From the NCBI GenBank assembly GCA_011049115.1, contig DSCM01000113.1, positions 1 through 60,347 of the forward strand: DNA of 60,347 bases. Direction: 5' to 3'. The position numbers and the translations under genes were made by a program. Positions 8,858-18,469 of the stretch are shown one piece after another. Within the stretch, counting starts at the first letter, position 1. The number at the start of each line of letters is the position of its first letter. The notes under the pieces were generated by a model. It saw only the letters and a program-made list of their open reading frames with translations. It was not told the DNA's origin and did not search any database. Origin of the DNA: Pseudomonadota bacterium. GTDB lineage: Bacteria; Desulfobacterota; Anaeroferrophillalia; Anaeroferrophillales; Tharpellaceae.

Positions 8858-9718
8858 TCAAGCTTTCGACGCCGGTTCAGCCACGTCTCGCAGAGCTTGT
8901 TGCAGCTGGTAGATTTCAGCTTGCCGGCCGCGCTTGCGACAACCGGCAAGATAGACGGCGCTCTTTTCCTGTAAAACCGCCAGCGCCATCTCCCGCTGGG
9001 CCTTCGTCAGCGTGCCGCTGTGAAGGACTTTAAGCAGCGCCTGAATCCGGTAGCGGTCAAGCGCGGGAACCGTGCGCGAGAGCTGATCGGCGTGCCCACC
9101 GTGCTTGACCACCAGTTTTTCGGCCAGCAGCGGCACGGGATAGCGACTGGCGGTCCGCAGCCAGAGATCATAATCCTCACAGGCCGGCAGATTTTCATCA
9201 AAAAGACCGACCCGGGCAAAAAAACGGCGGCGCATCATCACCGCCGAGGGACTGACCACACAGAGCGGCAGACATTCGGCGAAGATGTATCCGGAAGGCT
9301 TGCGGTGCCGAAAACGGGGATTGACCTGGCGCCCGTCCCGAATCCAGATTTCATCCGTCTGAGAAAGCAGCAGCTCCGGATCTTCGCGCATGAAGGCAAG
9401 TTGGCGCGCAATCTTTTCCGGACTCCAAAGATCATCGGAATCCAGCAGGGCGATAAAATCGCCCCGGCTGAAGGCGATGCCCCGATTACGGGCATAGCTG
9501 ACCCCGCGATTGCGGGGCAGCCGCAAGAGCTCGATGCGGTTCCCGAAATGTTTTACCAACAGGGCCGCGCTGGCATCGGTCGAAGCGTCGTCGACGACAA
9601 TGATCTGCAAACGGGAATAAGACTGATCCAACACCGAGGCCACCGCTCTGAGCAGCGGCTGCGCCCGGTTAAAGGTCGGAATCACGACGCTGACCAGAGG
9701 CGCTCGCCGCCCCCTCAT
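8858..9718 (-). CDS. Family 2 glycosyltransferase
   Basis: A 286-residue GT-A fold glycosyltransferase. PLVSVVIPTFNRAQPLLRA opens the nucleotide-sugar site, IIVVDDASTDAS provides the first Asp pair, and FIALLDSDDLWSPEKIARQL carries the DxD-type metal motif. AYDLW-like acidic residues (ACEDYDLWLR) match the catalytic ED-x-D-LW loop. It is likely to transfer a sugar to a cell-envelope glycan or lipid; the acceptor cannot be told. The start at 9718 overlaps the stop of pepA (ATGA), so the gene is the last member of the liv-pepA operon. The link of an envelope transferase to amino-acid uptake is unexplained. Confidence 0.88.
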   Translation of the reverse strand: MRGRRAPLVSVVIPTFNRAQPLLRAVASVLDQSYSRLQIIVVDDASTDASAALLVKHFGNRIELLRLPRNRGVSYARNRGIAFSRGDFIALLDSDDLWSPEKIARQLAFMREDPELLLSQTDEIWIRDGRQVNPRFRHRKPSGYIFAECLPLCVVSPSAVMMRRRFFARVGLFDENLPACEDYDLWLRTASRYPVPLLAEKLVVKHGGHADQLSRTVPALDRYRIQALLKVLHSGTLTKAQREMALAVLQEKSAVYLAGCRKRGRQAEIYQLQQALRDVAEPASKA

Positions 9719-11190
9719 GGCCGCAGATTTTTCACCAGACCGGCCATGATCCGGGCCCCGAAACCGGTCGCGCCGGGAGCGAAGTATTTCCATTTTTTCC
9801 CCGGATAGGCGGGCCCGGCAATATCGAGATGGGCCCAGGCGATAGTTTCGGGAACAAATTCACCCAAAAAGAGAGCGGCCGTAATCGTCCCTCCGTAAGC
9901 GCTGTTACCGATATTAGAGATCTCGGCAAAATCAGATTTCAGATCCTCCAGATAGGCCCTTTCCAGAGGCAGTTCCCAAAGAATTTCACCGCTTTCCTCG
10001 CCTGCCGCCCGCAACCGGCGAATCAGCTCGGCATCACGACCAAGCACCGCCGCCACCTGCACGCCCAGCGCCACCCGACAGGCCCCGGTCAGGGTGGCGG
10101 CGTCGACCATATAGTCGGGTTCGAGCGCGGCGCCCAGCTGCAGGGCATCAATCAGAATCAAACGGCCTTCGGCGTCGGTATTTTTAACTTCCACCGATTT
10201 ACCGTTTTTCATGACTATCACATCACCGGGAGCCTGAGCTCGGCCACTCGGCATATTTTCGGCCAGGGCCAGGATTCCGGTCACCTTGACCCGGGCTCCG
10301 AGCTGGGCGATGATTTCCATGGCTCCGAGAACCGCGGCCGCTCCGGCCATATCCGATTTCATATCCACCATCGAAGGACCGGGCTTCAGGGAAAGTCCGC
10401 CGGAATCAAAAGTAATGCCCTTACCCACCAAAACCACATGGGCCGGCTTCCCTTCCTGCTCCAGCGGCGGCTCATAAGTCAGAGCTACCATGCGCGGCGG
10501 CCGGCAGCTGCCCCGGCCCACGGCCAGGAGGCCGTTATAGCCTTCCCGCGCCAACCGGTTCTCGTCCCAAAGCTCGATTTTCAAACCATGGCGGCCGGCG
10601 CTTTTAACCGCCTCGTCGGCAAGTTCCTCGGGGCCCAGTATCGACGGCGGATGGTTGACTAGATCGCGCACCCGGTTAACCGCCAGGCAAACCGTTTCCA
10701 GTCTTTGCAATTCAGCCTGAATCTGCTCCCGGTCAAGACCGCCGACGACAAAAACCACTTCCGGAACCAACTTGTCAGCTTCCCGGGCGGCGGATTTAAA
10801 CTGCGTGTAATTATAAGCTCCGAGCACAATCCCTTCCAAGGCTTTTTTATGAAAACCCGGCGCATCGGGCCCATCCAAAACCAGAACCAGCGGCGAAATC
10901 TTAAGCGCCGCTGCCTCATTGAAAGCCTGCTGGGCGGCGCATTTGACCGCTTCCCAAGCATTGAGGTACTTGAACTGGGCCAGAGGCAGCAGGTAATCGG
11001 CCCGCTCCAGCTCCGGAGAGCCCAGAAACAACGACTTCTCAAGCCCCCGTTCCCGGTAAACCGCGGCTTTTTGTTCCAGTTCCGAAGATGAAGCAAAAAA
11101 AGACCGTTCTTCATCAAAAAGAAATACCCGCATTCCGGATTCCGGTGCCGGATAATGGTTCACAACCTTCCAGATAATATTCTTTTCCAT
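9715..11190 (-). CDS. pepA: Leucyl aminopeptidase (M17)
   Basis: A 491-residue cytosolic dimetal aminopeptidase. The C-terminal catalytic domain has VLVGKGITFDSGGLSLKP (metal-binding Lys and Asp), MKSDMAGAAAVLG (Asp) and the family signature NTDAEGRLILIDAL with its Asp-Glu-Arg. The ATG at 11190 is preferred over the one at 11196 because it is 7 bases from AGGAG, while the upstream ATG has only one base of spacing. The gene overlaps or abuts the livF stop and is co-transcribed with the transporter. Inference: it cleaves peptides to feed or balance the branched-chain amino-acid pool served by Liv. Confidence 0.95.
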   Translation of the reverse strand: MEKNIIWKVVNHYPAPESGMRVFLFDEERSFFASSSELEQKAAVYRERGLEKSLFLGSPELERADYLLPLAQFKYLNAWEAVKCAAQQAFNEAAALKISPLVLVLDGPDAPGFHKKALEGIVLGAYNYTQFKSAAREADKLVPEVVFVVGGLDREQIQAELQRLETVCLAVNRVRDLVNHPPSILGPEELADEAVKSAGRHGLKIELWDENRLAREGYNGLLAVGRGSCRPPRMVALTYEPPLEQEGKPAHVVLVGKGITFDSGGLSLKPGPSMVDMKSDMAGAAAVLGAMEIIAQLGARVKVTGILALAENMPSGRAQAPGDVIVMKNGKSVEVKNTDAEGRLILIDALQLGAALEPDYMVDAATLTGACRVALGVQVAAVLGRDAELIRRLRAAGEESGEILWELPLERAYLEDLKSDFAEISNIGNSAYGGTITAALFLGEFVPETIAWAHLDIAGPAYPGKKWKYFAPGATGFGARIMAGLVKNLRP

Positions 11191-11192
11191 GC

Positions 11193-11903
11193 TCATGCTC
11201 CTAAATAGGCTCCCTTAACCCTCTCATCGCGCAATAGCTCGGCGGCCGGAGCGGCCAGGACAATCCGGCCGGTCTCCATGACATAGCCGTAATCTGCCAG
11301 GCGCAGAGCGGCGTGCGCGTTCTGTTCAACCAGGAGGATGGTAATCCCCTCACCGGCTATTTTTTCAATAATCGCGAAAATCTTTTCCACCATCAACGGC
11401 GCCAACCCCAGCGAGGGCTCGTCCAGCAGCAACAGCTGCGGCTGTGACATCAAGGCCCGACCGATAGCCAGCATCTGCTGTTCCCCGCCGGACAAAGTGC
11501 CGCCGAGCTGACGCCGGCGCTCACCGAGTACCGGAAACAGATCGTAGACCATCTCCAGATCCGCCGCCACCGCACGTTTCACCCGCCGGCAGTAGGCCCC
11601 CATTTCCAGATTTTCCTGAATCGTCAATCCCGGGAAAATCCGCCGTCCTTCCGGCACCTGACAAAGACCGGCCTTGACGATCTCGTCCGGGCGTCGCCCG
11701 GTCAGAGGAGTGCCGTGATAAAGGATTTCACCGCTCCGGGGGTTGAGAATGCCGCTGATCACCATCAGCGTGGTTGATTTACCGGCGCCGTTGGCCCCGA
11801 TCAGGGTTCTGATTTCTCCGGCGTAAATCTCTAGATCAACCCCCTTCAGGGCGTGAATATTACCATAATAATAATGGATATGGTCAAGCTTCAGCAACGG
11901 CAT
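11193..11903 (-). CDS. livF: Branched-chain amino-acid ABC transporter ATPase LivF
   Basis: A 236-residue ABC ATPase of usual LivF length. Walker A IGANGAGKST, Q-loop PEGRRIFPGLTIQENLE, signature LSGGEQQMLAIGRAL, Walker B LLLLDEPSLGLAP and the switch region LLVEQNA are all present. The start at 11903 is the ATG giving MPLLKLDHIHYYYGNIHALK, which fits the family; GGGAG lies upstream. It overlaps livG by 20 bases. Together with LivG it should power LivHM import of branched-chain or other hydrophobic amino acids. Confidence 0.95.
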   Translation of the reverse strand: MPLLKLDHIHYYYGNIHALKGVDLEIYAGEIRTLIGANGAGKSTTLMVISGILNPRSGEILYHGTPLTGRRPDEIVKAGLCQVPEGRRIFPGLTIQENLEMGAYCRRVKRAVAADLEMVYDLFPVLGERRRQLGGTLSGGEQQMLAIGRALMSQPQLLLLDEPSLGLAPLMVEKIFAIIEKIAGEGITILLVEQNAHAALRLADYGYVMETGRIVLAAPAAELLRDERVKGAYLGA

Positions 11904-13101
11904 GCCGGGCTCCCAGATAAGCTGCGATGACCTTCTCATGGTTGCGGATTTCCGTCGGGCTACCCGAGGCAATGAGTTCACCATGATCGAGGACATAGAT
12001 TCGGCTGGCAAGGTTCATGATCACCTTCATATCGTGCTCGATAATCAGAACCGCGATTCCGGCCTGACTGATCCGCCGCACCACAGCGATCAGCGCGGCG
12101 GATTCGGTCGGATTCATGCCGGCCGCCGGTTCATCCAGAAGCAACAGGCGCGGCTCGCTCGCCAGGGCCCTGGCAATTTCAAGCCGGCGCTGATCACCGT
12201 AAGCCAGAGACCCGGCGCGGGTCTGCGACTGTTTACCGAGACCGACGAAACGCAGACAATCTTCCGCCTTGGCGGCGGAGTCGAGCTCCTCGCGACGAGC
12301 CCCTGGCAAGGCCAGGACAATACCGAAAAAATTGGCCCGGGTTCGGCCGTGACGCCCAAGTTTGACATTATCCAAGGCTGAGAGTGAGGAAAAAAGACGA
12401 ATATTCTGAAAGGTCCGGCCCATTCCGAGACGGGCGATGACATCCGCTCGCAGGTGTTGCCCGAAGGCCTCACGCACCCGCGGCAGATTACTCACAAGGA
12501 ACAGCAGCGCCGCTCCCAGAAACAGCAGCAGCGCTCCCGGAACCAGCAGCGGATAGAAGCGAAAGAGACCGAAAAAAACGACTTCCGAAAAGCTCTCGCT
12601 CCGTTTCAGCCAGACGAGTGCACACAGGAGGTCGCTCATCACAAAAAGATTGAGCAGCAGGCGACTCCAGGGCCGCAAGGCCCCTAGCGGTCGCAACAGA
12701 TAAATGCGGAACCCCGTCAGCAAGGTGAGGGCCAACACAGCTTCCAGGCGAAAAAAGGTTTCCGGCCAGACAACCCCCAAGACCAGCGGCAACCAGAGCA
12801 GCGAAAGCAGTCCGAACAACCGGCCGGCCCAGATCACCAGGCGCAATGTCTCCGGAGTCACCTGACTGACCAGACTCTGACCGGCGAAGATGATCTCCCC
12901 CGAGCTGACCCTGGTGACCGCGTTCAGACAATTAAAAAAAGTGGTTTTCCCGGCGCCGTTGGGACCGATCAAACCCACGATTTCCCCGGCCCGGACCTCC
13001 AGGGAAACCTCCTTGACCGCCGTCAGGCCGCCAAACCGTTTCACCACCCGGCGAGCCTGAAGCAGTACCTTGCCGGTTTTTATCTCAGCCACCGGACTCA
13101 T
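11884..13101 (-). CDS. livG: LivG-type ABC ATPase with a transmembrane insertion
   Basis: A 405-residue protein, about 150 longer than a normal LivG. Walker A GPNGAGKT is at residues 46-53, the Q-loop GRTFQNIRLF around 228-237, the signature LAYGDQRRLEIARAL around 299-313, Walker B LLLLDEPAAGMNP around 319-331 and the switch His in IIEHDMKV near 356. All ATPase motifs are intact. Between residues about 85 and 220 lies an extra hydrophobic block with about four likely transmembrane helices, starting LVIWAGRLFGLLSLLWLPLV. It splits the domain exactly between the strand after Walker A and the Q-loop. The frame is continuous. The start at 13101 overlaps the livM stop (ATGA). The role of the insert is unknown; it may anchor the ATPase in the membrane. 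Confidence 0.9.
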   Translation of the reverse strand: MSPVAEIKTGKVLLQARRVVKRFGGLTAVKEVSLEVRAGEIVGLIGPNGAGKTTFFNCLNAVTRVSSGEIIFAGQSLVSQVTPETLRLVIWAGRLFGLLSLLWLPLVLGVVWPETFFRLEAVLALTLLTGFRIYLLRPLGALRPWSRLLLNLFVMSDLLCALVWLKRSESFSEVVFFGLFRFYPLLVPGALLLFLGAALLFLVSNLPRVREAFGQHLRADVIARLGMGRTFQNIRLFSSLSALDNVKLGRHGRTRANFFGIVLALPGARREELDSAAKAEDCLRFVGLGKQSQTRAGSLAYGDQRRLEIARALASEPRLLLLDEPAAGMNPTESAALIAVVRRISQAGIAVLIIEHDMKVIMNLASRIYVLDHGELIASGSPTEIRNHEKVIAAYLGARHAVAEA

Positions 13102-14054
13102 TCCTTTTCCAGGGGCAACAGCCCGGCCGGGCGCCGGCGCATCATCACCACAATGATCAGACCGAAACAAAGATAGCGAGCCTGGCTCATTTCGGCCGGC
13201 AGAACGATCCGCAGAATCTCGGTCAGCGGAATCAGTACCAGAGCCCCGAGCAAAGCCCCGGTAATGCTGCCCATGCCGCCAAAAACAATCAGACAGAGAA
13301 TCAGAATCGACTCCCAGAATTTAAACATATCGGGATGAATAAAACGGAACCAGCGGGCATAGAAAGCCCCGGCCAGCGCTCCGATGGCAGCACTCAGGGC
13401 AAAAGCAATGATCTTGTAAATGGCGACGTTGATTCCGACACACTCAGCCGCGGTTTCATCCTCGCGGATGGCGAACCAGGCCCGCCCCAGCCGAGAACCG
13501 CGAATCCGCACGACCACCCAGAGCACCACCAGCAAAAAGAACAGTATCAGATAATAGGTCTGCCAAGGCTGCTCCAGCAGATAGCCAAAACAATCGGGGC
13601 GGGCGATTCCGGGAACCCCCATCGGGCCTCGGGTCAGCCAGAGCTCATTGCGAATCACCAGAATAATCAACTCGGAAAAGCCGAAGGTCACGATGGCAAA
13701 ATAATCATCCGCCAGACGCAGGGTCGGGGCTCCACGCAGCACGCCCCACAGGGCCCCATGCAAGGCCGCCAGGGGCAACACCAGCCACAGGCTCCACTGA
13801 TACTGAACCGTCAGCAGCCCGGCAGTATAAGCCCCGAGTCCGAAAAAACCGACGTAGCCCAGATCGAGCAGGCCGGTAAATCCCGGAACCACATTAAGCC
13901 CCAGGGCGAGAACCATGTAGACCAGGGTCAGAGTCGCAACCCGAATCACATAAGGTCCGGCCTCGCCCAGCGGCAGCCAGGGCAGAAGCAGGACCAGCGC
14001 CAGAAGGAGGGGAAAGTATCTTTTATCGCTGAAGAGATAGTCGTCTAAATGCAT
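13098..14054 (-). CDS. livM: Branched-chain amino-acid ABC permease LivM
   Basis: A 318-residue integral membrane permease. After a short hydrophilic start the protein is almost wholly hydrophobic helices. The family region LALGLNVVPGFTGLLDLGYVG, with its conserved glycines, is near residues 50-70, and PTLRLADDYFAIVTFGFSE matches the LivM coupling-loop area. It forms the translocation path with LivH and overlaps livG by 4 bases. About 80 bases separate it from livH. Confidence 0.95.
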   Translation of the reverse strand: MHLDDYLFSDKRYFPLLLALVLLLPWLPLGEAGPYVIRVATLTLVYMVLALGLNVVPGFTGLLDLGYVGFFGLGAYTAGLLTVQYQWSLWLVLPLAALHGALWGVLRGAPTLRLADDYFAIVTFGFSELIILVIRNELWLTRGPMGVPGIARPDCFGYLLEQPWQTYYLILFFLLVVLWVVVRIRGSRLGRAWFAIREDETAAECVGINVAIYKIIAFALSAAIGALAGAFYARWFRFIHPDMFKFWESILILCLIVFGGMGSITGALLGALVLIPLTEILRIVLPAEMSQARYLCFGLIIVVMMRRRPAGLLPLEKE

Positions 14055-14134: not shown

Positions 14135-15061
14135 TCAGGCCTTATCCTTAATGCGACGGCCGAAGATACCGTTCGGCTTGACCAGAATCACCAGAATCAT
14201 CACCGCATAGGCAATGCCGTCACTATAGGCGGAAGAGATATAACCGCCTCCAAAAACTTCGGCCAGACCGAGAATCGCACCACCGAGAATGGCTCCGGGA
14301 ATACTCCCGATACCTCCCAGCACTGCGGCGGCAAAAGCCTTGATCCCGGCAAAATAGCCCATGGTCGGATAGACCGCGTTATAGTAGAGGGCGACCAGAA
14401 TCCCGGCCACCGCGCCCAGCGCCGAGCCCAGAGCGAAGGTATAGGAAACCACCCGATCAACATTGACGCCCATCAAAGCGGCCGCGATCTGGTCCTGGGC
14501 TATCGCCCGCATGGCCCGCCCCGTTCGAGTATAATGCACCACCAGCTGCAAAATCAACATCAGAATCATGGCGACCAGCAAAACAATTACCTGCAGCCAG
14601 CCGACACTGACCTCGCCCATTTCCAGGGCCGTCTCAAACAAAAACGCGGGAATAACACCGCGGGGGAAAGCTTTAATCTGCCCCCCCCAGATCAGCAGGG
14701 CCAGATTCTGCAGAAAAATCGACATGCCGATGGCGGTGATCAGAGCCGCCAGGCGGGGAGAACGCCGCAAAGGGCGATAGGCGATAACATCCAACAGCAC
14801 TCCGGCTCCGGCGCAGATCAGCACTGCGAGCGGCACGGCAACGGCAAACGGCAGGCTCGGACCGAAAAAACCGGTCAGCAGGGAAAAACTCAGGAAGGCC
14901 CCGAACATATAAATTTCGCCATGAGCGAAATTTATCAGCTGAATAACCCCATAGACCATAGTGTAACCCACCGCGATCAAAGCGTAAATACCGCCCAGGG
15001 TTACCCCATTTACCAGCTGCTGTAAAAAAAGGGCTGACTGTTCGAGAAAAAAACCCTCCAT
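14135..15061 (-). CDS. livH: Branched-chain amino-acid ABC permease LivH
   Basis: A 308-residue membrane permease. The start GVTLGGIYALIAVGYTMVYG followed by INFAHGEIYMFGAF is the hallmark of LivH; later RAMRAIAQDQIAAALMGVNV corresponds to the ATPase-coupling loop and GIGSIPGAILGG to a conserved late helix. It pairs with LivM. The gene follows livK with a 6-base gap and is part of the same minus-strand operon. Confidence 0.95.
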   Translation of the reverse strand: MEGFFLEQSALFLQQLVNGVTLGGIYALIAVGYTMVYGVIQLINFAHGEIYMFGAFLSFSLLTGFFGPSLPFAVAVPLAVLICAGAGVLLDVIAYRPLRRSPRLAALITAIGMSIFLQNLALLIWGGQIKAFPRGVIPAFLFETALEMGEVSVGWLQVIVLLVAMILMLILQLVVHYTRTGRAMRAIAQDQIAAALMGVNVDRVVSYTFALGSALGAVAGILVALYYNAVYPTMGYFAGIKAFAAAVLGGIGSIPGAILGGAILGLAEVFGGGYISSAYSDGIAYAVMILVILVKPNGIFGRRIKDKA

Positions 15062-15067
15062 TTTTGC

Positions 15068-16183
15068 CTACTGTAACTGTCCTTCCGCGCTGACCCATTG
15101 ACCGTTTCTGATGATTTTGACAAAAGCGGCCTTCAGACAATCGCCATTCTCATCGAAATAGGTCGCCCCGGTAACCCCCGGGTAGGCTTTCTCCGGAGAA
15201 TTGATCGCGGCCAGATAACCACGCACCTGTTCCCGATCGTTTCCGGCCACCGCCAGGGCCGCCGCCGCCAAGCCGACCGCGTCATAGGTATTGGCGGCAA
15301 ACCAGTTCGGTTCAACTGAGAATTTATGACGATAGCGCTCGACAAATTCTTTAACGATGCTTCCGCCGCGATCCGCCAGAAAGGGGGTGGTCACAAACAA
15401 ACCCTCAGCCTCGGGATTTTTCAGCATGATTTCATCATCCAGACCATCGCCTCCAAAAAAAGCGCATTTCAGGCCCAGATTACGAGCCTGGGAAATCAAC
15501 AGGGTAGCCTGGGGCGCATAGCCGGGAATAAAGATCGCATCGGGCCGCAGCAGTTTGAATTTTGCCAACTGAGCTTTGAAATCCGTGGTTTCAGCCCGAT
15601 AGGCTTCGGCTCCGACGACCTTGAGACCACTGTTTCGGGCTTGGGCAAAAAAAGCGTCTTTAAGCCCCATAGCATAATCATTTACCTCATAAAAAATGGC
15701 GACCCGTTTAAAATTCATGACCTGACTGGCATAACGGGCGAGAAAATCCCCCTGAAAATCATCCCTGTAAACGTTGCGAAAATAGTAAGGGCTGGATTTT
15801 CCGATCACCGGATTGGTCGAGGCCGGAGTAATCGCCGGCAGTTTGGCTTCCAGATAAATCGGCAACGCCGCCAGGGTCGCCGAACTACAAAGATGACCGA
15901 TGATAATCGCGCTCTTCTGATCATTGGCGAAACGAGTGGCCACGGCCGCGGCTTCCTTGGGGTCGCAAAGTTCATCGGCCAGCTCGATCTCTACCTTTTG
16001 CCCATTGATTCCCCCCCCCGCATTGATTTCTTCCGCCTTGAGCAGGGCTCCGTTTTTCACGCCTTCACCAAAAGATGCCAGCGGCCCGGTAAAAGGGGAA
16101 GCCACTGGAATTTTGATGATTTCCGCCCCCCCTGGCACCGCCAGAAAGAAAACCAGCCCAAGCACCATGAGCTTTTTCTTCAT
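15068..16183 (-). CDS. livK: Branched-chain amino-acid substrate-binding protein
   Basis: A 371-residue periplasmic binding protein of type I fold. A signal peptide covers about the first 20 residues (MKKKLMVLGLVFFLAVPGGA). The mature part starts IIKIPVASPFTGPLASFGEG, typical of LivJ/LivK, and has IIGHLCSSATLAALPIY and PAITPASTNPVIG, the ligand-contact segments of that family. It delivers branched-chain or related amino acids to LivHMGF. The ATG overlaps the stop of the HD gene (ATGA). Confidence 0.93.
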   Translation of the reverse strand: MKKKLMVLGLVFFLAVPGGAEIIKIPVASPFTGPLASFGEGVKNGALLKAEEINAGGGINGQKVEIELADELCDPKEAAAVATRFANDQKSAIIIGHLCSSATLAALPIYLEAKLPAITPASTNPVIGKSSPYYFRNVYRDDFQGDFLARYASQVMNFKRVAIFYEVNDYAMGLKDAFFAQARNSGLKVVGAEAYRAETTDFKAQLAKFKLLRPDAIFIPGYAPQATLLISQARNLGLKCAFFGGDGLDDEIMLKNPEAEGLFVTTPFLADRGGSIVKEFVERYRHKFSVEPNWFAANTYDAVGLAAAALAVAGNDREQVRGYLAAINSPEKAYPGVTGATYFDENGDCLKAAFVKIIRNGQWVSAEGQLQ

Positions 16184-16785
16184 TCCCCGCCTCCGTTTTT
16201 ATGTTTGCCGTTAATCCACCATTCATTACTGCCTTTACTGAACCACCAGGCGGCCCAGTCACCCTCATACAGGGCCTTGGCCAGGGAACGACCGGAATCG
16301 GTCAACAGCCGTTGCCGGGCCACACTCAGCCATTCCCTTGCGTAAGCATTCCCGAGATCCAGTTCCTCCTTGAGAAGCACCATCAGGGCCAGCTGGTCGG
16401 CATCCGCGGACAGCCGGGCCTCGGGACTTTGGCGCTCGTCAAACTCTTTGACCAGAACCTCAATTTCCCCTCCAAAAAAGAGCGGCCGACACATGTCGCT
16501 CAGGGCACCAGTGGCCTCGACCCGCACATATTTCTTATTCACATAATTAAGATCGCCCGTGCGAGACTCAATCAGGTCGTGCAGCAGACAAAGTTGCAAG
16601 ACCTTTTTTTCATCAATTGCCACGCCCCTTTCCGCTTCCATCTTGGCCAGAACAAAACCGACTATCATCGTCTGGAAAACATGCTCGGCCACACTCTCCC
16701 GACCGCTGCCGAGAAACTGCAGGCCGCTGCGCGGAGTCCGCCGCAGCATCGCCGCCGTAAAGAGGAATTCGGCCAGAGGCTTCAC
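16180..16785 (-). CDS. HD-domain phosphohydrolase (YfbR/HDDC2-like)
   Basis: A 201-residue HD-superfamily protein with the metal ligands in order: ESVAEHVFQTM (His), LLHDLIESRTGD (His-Asp) and LSADADQLALMVLL (final Asp). This is the pattern of YfbR/HDDC2-type 5'-deoxynucleotidases. The start is a GTG at 16785 overlapping the previous stop (GTGA). It is translationally linked to both the coiled-coil gene and livK, an unusual partner for an amino-acid transporter. Its substrate cannot be read from the sequence. Confidence 0.8.
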   Translation of the reverse strand: MKPLAEFLFTAAMLRRTPRSGLQFLGSGRESVAEHVFQTMIVGFVLAKMEAERGVAIDEKKVLQLCLLHDLIESRTGDLNYVNKKYVRVEATGALSDMCRPLFFGGEIEVLVKEFDERQSPEARLSADADQLALMVLLKEELDLGNAYAREWLSVARQRLLTDSGRSLAKALYEGDWAAWWFSKGSNEWWINGKHKNGGGE

Positions 16786-17072
16786 AGCTGCAAAGCCTCC
16801 AGTTCCCGTAACCGCTCAAGAATCATATTTTTCTTGATCCGGGCGGCCTGGTAGGCCATTTCATCCCCGGCTTCAAACGCCGCTTTGAGCTCATCCTCAA
16901 TCCGGGCCGCCCCGGCCGCCATCTCGACATAAGACTTTTTTAACTCCGCGGTTACCGATTCCAGATTATCGTCCAGCTCCCCCAGGGTCTTTTGTATCCA
17001 GGCCGGGTCGTTGAAACGTTCGATCTCGGCCGTATCTTCCGCTAAATCAGCGGCCTTTAGTTTTTCTCGCAT
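16782..17072 (-). CDS. Small coiled-coil protein, unknown function
   Basis: A 96-residue, mostly helical and charged protein (MREKLKAADLAEDTAEIE at the start; LERLRELEALQL at the end) without cysteines or membrane segments. Heptad-like spacing suggests a coiled coil. The ATG at 17072 has GAGGG 8 bases upstream; an in-frame ATG at 17090 is an alternative. It is coupled to the HD gene by a GTGA overlap and is the first gene of the liv-pepA run. No family is recognised. Confidence 0.6.
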   Translation of the reverse strand: MREKLKAADLAEDTAEIERFNDPAWIQKTLGELDDNLESVTAELKKSYVEMAAGAARIEDELKAAFEAGDEMAYQAARIKKNMILERLRELEALQL

Positions 17073-17495
17073 TTCCTGATCCCTCGGCATCACTCTGACC
17101 AATGCGGGAACAAGTCCCGCAACCCAAAGGGCCTTCACGGCCCGCAAATAAGTACTCTTGTCAGACCCAGCAGAGCTGGATAAGTTTCTTCATCGGGACA
17201 TCCCCTTCGGGGATAACCCGTGAAGCACTTAACATTTTCTTGTTTTTGTGGTTGAAAAAATTGTTGAAAAAAAACAAGAAAATAACCCGTAAGGTTCTAA
17301 AGTTATCTATCAAACCTGCTGGCTGCGTAAGCAACCAACCGACTGCGTTCACCTTTAACTTTGGTCACGGTGTTGTACCTCTGGATATGCCGCCGGTCCA
17401 GGTTTCGAACGCCTCGCGGCTGGGGAGGACTTTACTGAAAGTTCTCTCCCCCCCCCCAAGTGCTTGCAGGTAAAGCAGCTCAGAACGGTTTCATT
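17073..17495. other. Intergenic gap with clustered hairpins
   Basis: About 420 bases between yraN and the liv run. Three compact inverted repeats crowd 17104-17220: GCGGGA/TCCCGC at 17104-17120, GGGCC/GGCCC at 17129-17143, and a nested stem at 17194-17220 built on TCCCC-TTC-GGGGA with a UUCG-type loop. A weaker A/T-rich inverted repeat (CTTGTTTTT...AAAACAAG) lies near 17237-17276. A run of nine or ten C residues is near 17447. No gene is supported. The gap must hold the promoter of the liv operon, perhaps with a structured leader. Confidence 0.5.
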
Positions 17496-17870
17496 TCAAT
17501 CCCAGGGAAAAGCGTTCTCGACCCATTCCAACTCAAATTTATCCGATTCCCGGGCCACAGTAATCGCGATCACATCAAAACGTAAATCACCGTCCCAAGG
17601 GTTTTGATTCAGATACCAGCCCGCAGTTTTAATCAAACGTCTCCGCTTGGCGACGGAAACGGCTTCCAGTGCATTCGTCCAGCCACCCTGACGTCTGGTT
17701 TTAACCTCACAAAAGATTAAAAGTTCCTGGTTACGGACAATCAGATCGATTTCCCCGAAACGACAACGAAATCCTCGTTCGACGATCGTCAGGCCGCGCT
17801 TCTGTAGAAAAGCGGCCGCCAGAGCCTCACCCCGGCGCCCTAAAGAACCACCCCTGTCCTTCGCCGTCAT
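17496..17870 (-). CDS. yraN: YraN/UPF0102 nuclease-fold protein
   Basis: A 124-residue protein with the UPF0102 pattern: GRRGEALAAAFLQKRGLTIV, then FRCRFGEIDLIVRNQELLIFCEVKTRR, the (D/E)-x-D and E-V-K motif of restriction-endonuclease-like folds. The biochemical role of the family is not settled. The ATG at 17870 overlaps the rnhB stop (ATGA). The position after rnhB is the classical proteobacterial order. Confidence 0.92.
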   Translation of the reverse strand: MTAKDRGGSLGRRGEALAAAFLQKRGLTIVERGFRCRFGEIDLIVRNQELLIFCEVKTRRQGGWTNALEAVSVAKRRRLIKTAGWYLNQNPWDGDLRFDVIAITVARESDKFELEWVENAFPWD

Positions 17871-18469
17871 CCACAAACTTCCGCTTTGGCTCTGAAACTT
17901 TGACGATGCAGCCAGCAGGGTCCGATCCGGGTCAGCGCCGCCCGGTGCCGGCGGGTGCCGTAACCTTTATGAGAAGCAAAACCATATTCAGGAAATCGGC
18001 AATCATAATACTGCATCTGACGATCACGTATGACTTTGGCGACAATTGAGGCCGCCGCTACCGGCAGACAAAGAGAATCCCCCCGCACCAAGGGATATTG
18101 AGGAAGGTAAAGAGGCAAAGACTGAGGCCCGTCAACGACCACCAGATCCGGAACCTGGCGAAGCGAGGTCAGAGCCAGAACCATCGCTTTCAGGGAAGCC
18201 TGGAGGATATTGATTCGATCTATCTCCCGAGCGGAAACCACCCCCAGTCCGATAGCGACCCCAGCCGCCACCATCTGCCGAAACAGTCGTTCCCGAGAAG
18301 CAGGAGTCAATTTCTTTGAATCGTTAACCCCTGCCACGGCAAAACCCGCCGGCAGAATGACGGCGGCGGCAACCACCGGTCCAGCCAGGCAGCCGCGCCC
18401 GGCTTCATCGACCCCGGCCAGTTGCGGCCGCCCCAAACGAGTCATTAGAAGATTAAGCGAACGCAGCAA
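17867..18469 (-). CDS. rnhB: Ribonuclease HII
   Basis: A 200-residue RNase HII that removes ribonucleotides from DNA and RNA-DNA hybrids. LAGVDEAGRGCLAGPVVAAA carries the first catalytic Asp-Glu (Cys replaces the usual Pro after the GRG), LVVVDGPQ the next Asp, and ASIVAKVIRDRQM the following acidic helix. The start is taken as a TTG at 18469 with GGGAG 8 bases before it; an ATG at 18445 is possible. It lies between rplS and yraN, as in many deltaproteobacteria. Confidence 0.93.
   Translation of the reverse strand: MLRSLNLLMTRLGRPQLAGVDEAGRGCLAGPVVAAAVILPAGFAVAGVNDSKKLTPASRERLFRQMVAAGVAIGLGVVSAREIDRINILQASLKAMVLALTSLRQVPDLVVVDGPQSLPLYLPQYPLVRGDSLCLPVAAASIVAKVIRDRQMQYYDCRFPEYGFASHKGYGTRRHRAALTRIGPCWLHRQSFRAKAEVCG

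Follow-up and report, generated by a model that had tools for sequence, protein, structure and literature searches.

A conserved domain of predicted membrane helices inserted in the LivG-type ATPase of a liv operon lineage of Desulfobacterota

The LivG-type ATP-binding subunit encoded in the window (the whole stretch of 60,347 nucleotides analysed here) carries, within an ABC ATPase core with intact motifs, a block of 139 residues predicted to form four membrane helices. The protein, here called LivG*, works in an operon of a known type, that of the HAAT importers, and has the motifs of its family; the inserted membrane domain is the new part. Within one phylum, Desulfobacterota, 27 genomes belonging to three families have homologous inserts of 137–145 residues at the identical site, and the carriers belong to several, mostly uncultured groups. 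The ATPases of prokaryotic ABC importers are soluble subunits, held only through their contacts with the permease. A predicted membrane domain gained once, conserved and placed just before the permease-sensing Q-loop amounts to a natural experiment on the coupling of ATP hydrolysis to the membrane part of the transporter.

Table 1. Coordinates, within the window, of the liv genes, the ATPase motifs and the inserted domain.
Feature	Position	Strand	Description and basis
livF	11193..11903	-	second ATPase subunit, insert-free
livG*	11884..13101	-	405 aa; ATP-binding subunit of an ABC transporter of the branched-chain amino acid type, carrying the predicted membrane domain
H-loop	12034..12036	-	H356
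Walker B	12127..12147	-	LLLLDEP (LivG 319-325)
ABC signature	12190..12207	-	LAYGDQ (LivG 299-304)
Q-loop	12403..12417	-	RTFQN (LivG 229-233)
Inserted domain	12454..12870	-	LivG 78-216, 139 aa; alignment to canonical LivGs; profile match at exactly these coordinates
Insert helix 4	12490..12555	-	LivG 183-204; predicted TM4, most hydrophobic, KD 2.69; hydropathy, AlphaFold2
Insert helix 3	12604..12672	-	LivG 144-166; predicted TM3, invariant W145, F153, D157; alignment, hydropathy, AlphaFold2
Insert helix 2	12700..12750	-	LivG 118-134; predicted TM2, invariant E120 and R132; alignment, AlphaFold2
Insert helix 1	12769..12855	-	LivG 83-111; predicted TM1 with cytoplasmic extension; AlphaFold2 of insert, hydropathy
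Walker A	12943..12966	-	GPNGAGKT (LivG 46-53)
livM	13098..14054	-	permease, 318 aa, BPD_transp_2, without N-terminal extension
livH	14135..15061	-	permease, 308 aa, BPD_transp_2
livK	15068..16183	-	substrate-binding protein, Peripla_BP_6

The insert within the ATPase

Frame translation gives LivG* as a single open frame of 405 residues, read from 13101 to 11884 on the minus strand. The set of ABC motifs is complete, from Walker A through the Q-loop, signature and Walker B to the H-loop, as the original prediction had claimed, and the BCA_ABC_TP_C domain (PF12399) is matched at residues 375–401 with 44.6 bits against a cutoff of 25.5. The NCBIfam LivG equivalog model NF008449 is the top model in that library and matches in two pieces, but its 255.5 bits fall below the cutoff of 362; LivG* is therefore placed in a distinct subfamily of LivG-type ATPases and not among the LivG equivalogs. 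Confidence in the full-length AlphaFold2 model is low (pLDDT 62), yet the model still matches the LivG protein MJ1267 and LptB (TMt 0.73–0.80), and this match to ABC ATPases, including a LivG, indicates that the core fold is kept. In genus g2, two LivGs keep the insert and have altered motifs: one (L016, genome G003) has ADDRRR as its signature and a glutamine replacing the H-loop histidine, and the other (L017, genome G001) has the degenerate signature SHANRR. One ATP site of the LivF–LivG pair may be impaired in these two genomes, judging from these motifs.

Canonical LivGs of HAAT importers, such as E. coli LivG and MJ1267 (PDB 1g6h), share with LivG* all the ABC motifs, the C-terminal BCA_ABC_TP_C tail and the place between livM and livF, and E. 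coli LivG is 43% identical to it across the shared part. They differ in having about 255 residues, as the original prediction held (E. coli LivG has 255), and no membrane helices, whereas LivG* has 139 residues of predicted membrane helices inserted. Boundaries were set by alignment with E. coli LivG and canonical LivGs of the same phylum. On one side of the insert is the beta-subdomain strand GEIIFAGQSL and on the other the helix LRADVIARLGMGRTFQ, which runs into the Q-loop; the insert takes the place of a short loop adjoining the Q-loop. Some 135 hydrophobic residues had been predicted between the Walker A half and the Q-loop, at 12442–12849 (LivG 85–220); the location holds to within a few residues, but the extra block spans residues 78–216 and is 139 residues long. 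The insertion is clean and in frame, as proposed: the frame is open, the flanks align with canonical LivGs and the arrangement is conserved in 27 genomes.

The original prediction also considered that the insert might be a misassembled or intron-like segment. An artefact of this kind, in which a misassembly, an intron or an intein splits an ordinary livG, would be in keeping with the origin of the window in a draft genome of 143 contigs. We rejected it as having practically no likelihood: the insert is common to 27 genomes, one of which carries it on a single contig of 4.24 Mb, the frame is open, purifying selection acts at the amino acid level and AlphaFold2 predicts the helices with confidence. 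That the insert is real also follows from its recurrence, with exactly 139 residues and without an indel, in 11 genomes from three genera within the family of the window, together with the homologues that make up the three families.

Extra domains inserted in an ABC ATPase core have precedents in the arm domain of ABC-F proteins and the coiled coils of Rad50 and SMC; these are soluble coiled coils at another site and have no membrane helices. The regulatory insertion in NBD1 of CFTR, like the LivG* insert, lies inside an ABC ATPase domain; it is soluble and flexible, occupies another loop and has no membrane helices. This CFTR insertion is named in PMC3776845. With the terms used in an open-access literature library, we found no account of a membrane domain within LivG.

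Distribution, origin and relatives of the insert

The profile search covered the window's own phylum, so that the spread given here is a lower bound; a scan of the whole collection with patterns from close relatives returned the window's own lineage only. Checking relatives for the insert, as had been proposed, located it in 11 genomes of the family to which the window belongs, in three genomes of family f22 (among them the 4.24-Mb single contig) and in 13 of about 46 genomes of family f49. Own-family genomes without a match are mostly incomplete, and in two of them the operon or a LivG fragment is cut by the contig end. The homologous inserts of f22 and f49 show 22–32% identity, and the residues E120, R132, W145, F153, D157 and G214 are invariant across the carrier families. 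Public records place relatives in Candidatus Tharpella, a genus described along with its family (PMC9213671), and in other metagenome assemblies of Desulfobacterota. One further long LivG frame (L022) was rejected as a carrier, its length being due to an upstream extension only.

In trees of the LivG core (with the insert removed), LivH and LivM, all carriers form one clade, with ultrafast bootstrap values of 93, 94 and 95, respectively, which shows that the insert was gained once, by these phylogenies in the ancestor of one livKHMGF operon lineage of Desulfobacterota. The LivMs of f22 and f49 carriers are 68–71% identical to that of the window. Both families include carriers and non-carriers, and different liv operons are present in those non-carriers that were examined; the lineage of insert-bearing operons would either have been passed between families or have been lost often. 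The next group of LivMs, 57–61% identical to the window's, comes from families f41, f14 and f23; in f23 the LivM-bearing contig showed no LivG. The sister operons of f41 and f14 are the nearest that lack the insert (LivM 57–60% and LivH 59–63% identity). In their LivGs, otherwise ordinary, the loop at the same site is slightly lengthened (several to about 16 residues), with no membrane helices. Because this lengthening falls exactly at the insertion site (L144–L147, L109), the loop is taken to tolerate insertions in this lineage.

Searched alone, as the original prediction had suggested, the insert matched nothing in Pfam, NCBIfam and PHROGs, or in PDB by sequence or profile, and a Foldseek search with its model gave no significant match in PDB or among viral folds. 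No plasmid, viral or stand-alone copies were found, and all profile matches from the sampled phylum fall within LivG frames (none stands alone). We regard the insert as defining a domain family without a match in the libraries searched.

Profile comparison detected neither an internal duplication nor a relation to LivH, LivM, LivF, LivK or the N-terminal extension found on long LivMs, and origins of the insert from that extension, from LivH or LivM, or by internal duplication were rejected on this basis. The LivMs of carriers do lack the N-terminal membrane extension present in many LivMs, which would suit a relocation of this permease piece into LivG. Such a move is nevertheless highly improbable, given that the insert shows a profile probability below 1% against the LivM extension, LivM and LivH and that this extension is likewise missing from the sister LivMs, whose operons have insert-free LivGs.

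Predicted fold and proposed role

AlphaFold2, run on the insert alone with an alignment of 27 inserts, predicts four long helices (pLDDT 90, pTM 0.82), the first of which, at 29 residues, is longer than a membrane crossing needs. Helices 1, 3 and 4 pass the Kyte–Doolittle threshold for transmembrane segments, and helix 2, which contains an arginine, is for that reason weaker in the sequence of the window. The original prediction of four membrane helices is therefore upheld in the number of helices and in the hydropathy of three of them, with helix 2 weaker and the membrane location itself predicted. Of ten canonical LivGs scanned on the same scale, one has two segments of this kind, both marginal, and the other nine have none; a stretch of the ATPase core of LivG* (residues 336–354) also passes and was judged a false positive. 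Four arginines and no acidic residue lie in the loop joining helices 2 and 3, and helix 4 is followed by a basic segment. These charges and the hydropathy fit four transmembrane helices with both ends in the cytoplasm.

In close pairs, dN/dS is 0.13–0.19 for the insert against 0.04–0.27 for the rest of LivG, which places the insert under purifying selection by this measure. Helices 2 and 3 bring E120 and D157 to what would be a similar depth in the predicted fold.

We lean, by a little over even chances, towards a reading of the insert as an additional membrane module with two effects: it would dock LivG next to LivH and LivM and would modulate the ATPase on its Q-loop side. Its four helices would cross the inner membrane beside the two permeases, with helix 1 extending beyond it on the cytoplasmic side to reach the ATPase core, and LivG would thereby become an integral membrane subunit that docks the ATPase on the permease side. 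Movement of the membrane helices could then be passed to the strand and helix beside the Q-loop, tuning the coupling of ATPase and permease. The full-length model is of too low confidence to support a particular geometry of insert and ATPase core. The two genus g2 proteins, with degenerate ATPase motifs and the insert kept, speak against a role in tuning the ATPase, which would not predict them.

A simpler alternative is a passive anchor, which would keep LivG at the membrane and improve the efficiency of assembly with no part in the transport cycle. Hydrophobic helices would suffice for this, both ends of the insert are predicted on the cytoplasmic side, and in 9 of 11 pairs the insert has diverged at a higher rate than the core of the ATPase. 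We consider it unlikely, since an anchor needs none of the residues E120, R132 and D157, in or at the edge of the helices, or W145 and F153, all invariant at only 22–32% identity, and the absence of indels in 11 genomes also tells against it. The conserved charged residues argue for more than a hydrophobic anchor. Alternatively, two of them, E120 and D157, could as a buried pair form the active site of a sensor or other functional membrane module responding to an ion, the state of the membrane or a small ligand, and gating the ATPase. Both acids are invariant, and the insert directly precedes the Q-loop; against this, Foldseek found no related sensor or channel fold in PDB or among viral folds, and the two acids might just as well have a structural role or form a pair with R132. 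We hold this reading to be distinctly improbable.

Beyond the docking and modulating role that we favour lies a bolder claim, which we put forward as unlikely: a new ABC importer architecture, in which one ATPase subunit would be an integral membrane protein and a four-helix domain with a conserved acid pair in the membrane would directly control the ATPase beside the Q-loop, as a built-in sensor of the membrane or of ions.

The operon and its neighbours

The order livK-livH-livM-livG*-livF is complete in 13 of the 14 insert-bearing loci read, the fourteenth ending at a contig end; in one further carrier genome livK, livH and livM lie on a separate contig. The operon is predicted to encode a HAAT-type importer for branched-chain amino acids, the binding protein being assigned by Peripla_BP_6 only. 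Clade-specific residues in the partner subunits amount to few changes in the membrane partners and outline no clear contact surface with the insert. LivK stands out, with 30 positions that are conserved among carriers and in every case differ from the sister clade, against 3–12 in the other subunits, hinting at a different substrate.

A leucyl aminopeptidase gene (Peptidase_M17; 9715–11196, minus strand) overlaps the end of livF and follows livF in five own-family loci; it was not seen beside the operon in f22 or f49. Its position suggests a possible link between peptide breakdown and amino acid uptake. Upstream of livK (16180–18469, minus strand), genes for RNase HII, YraN, a small open reading frame and an HD-domain protein form an arrangement conserved in the window's own family.
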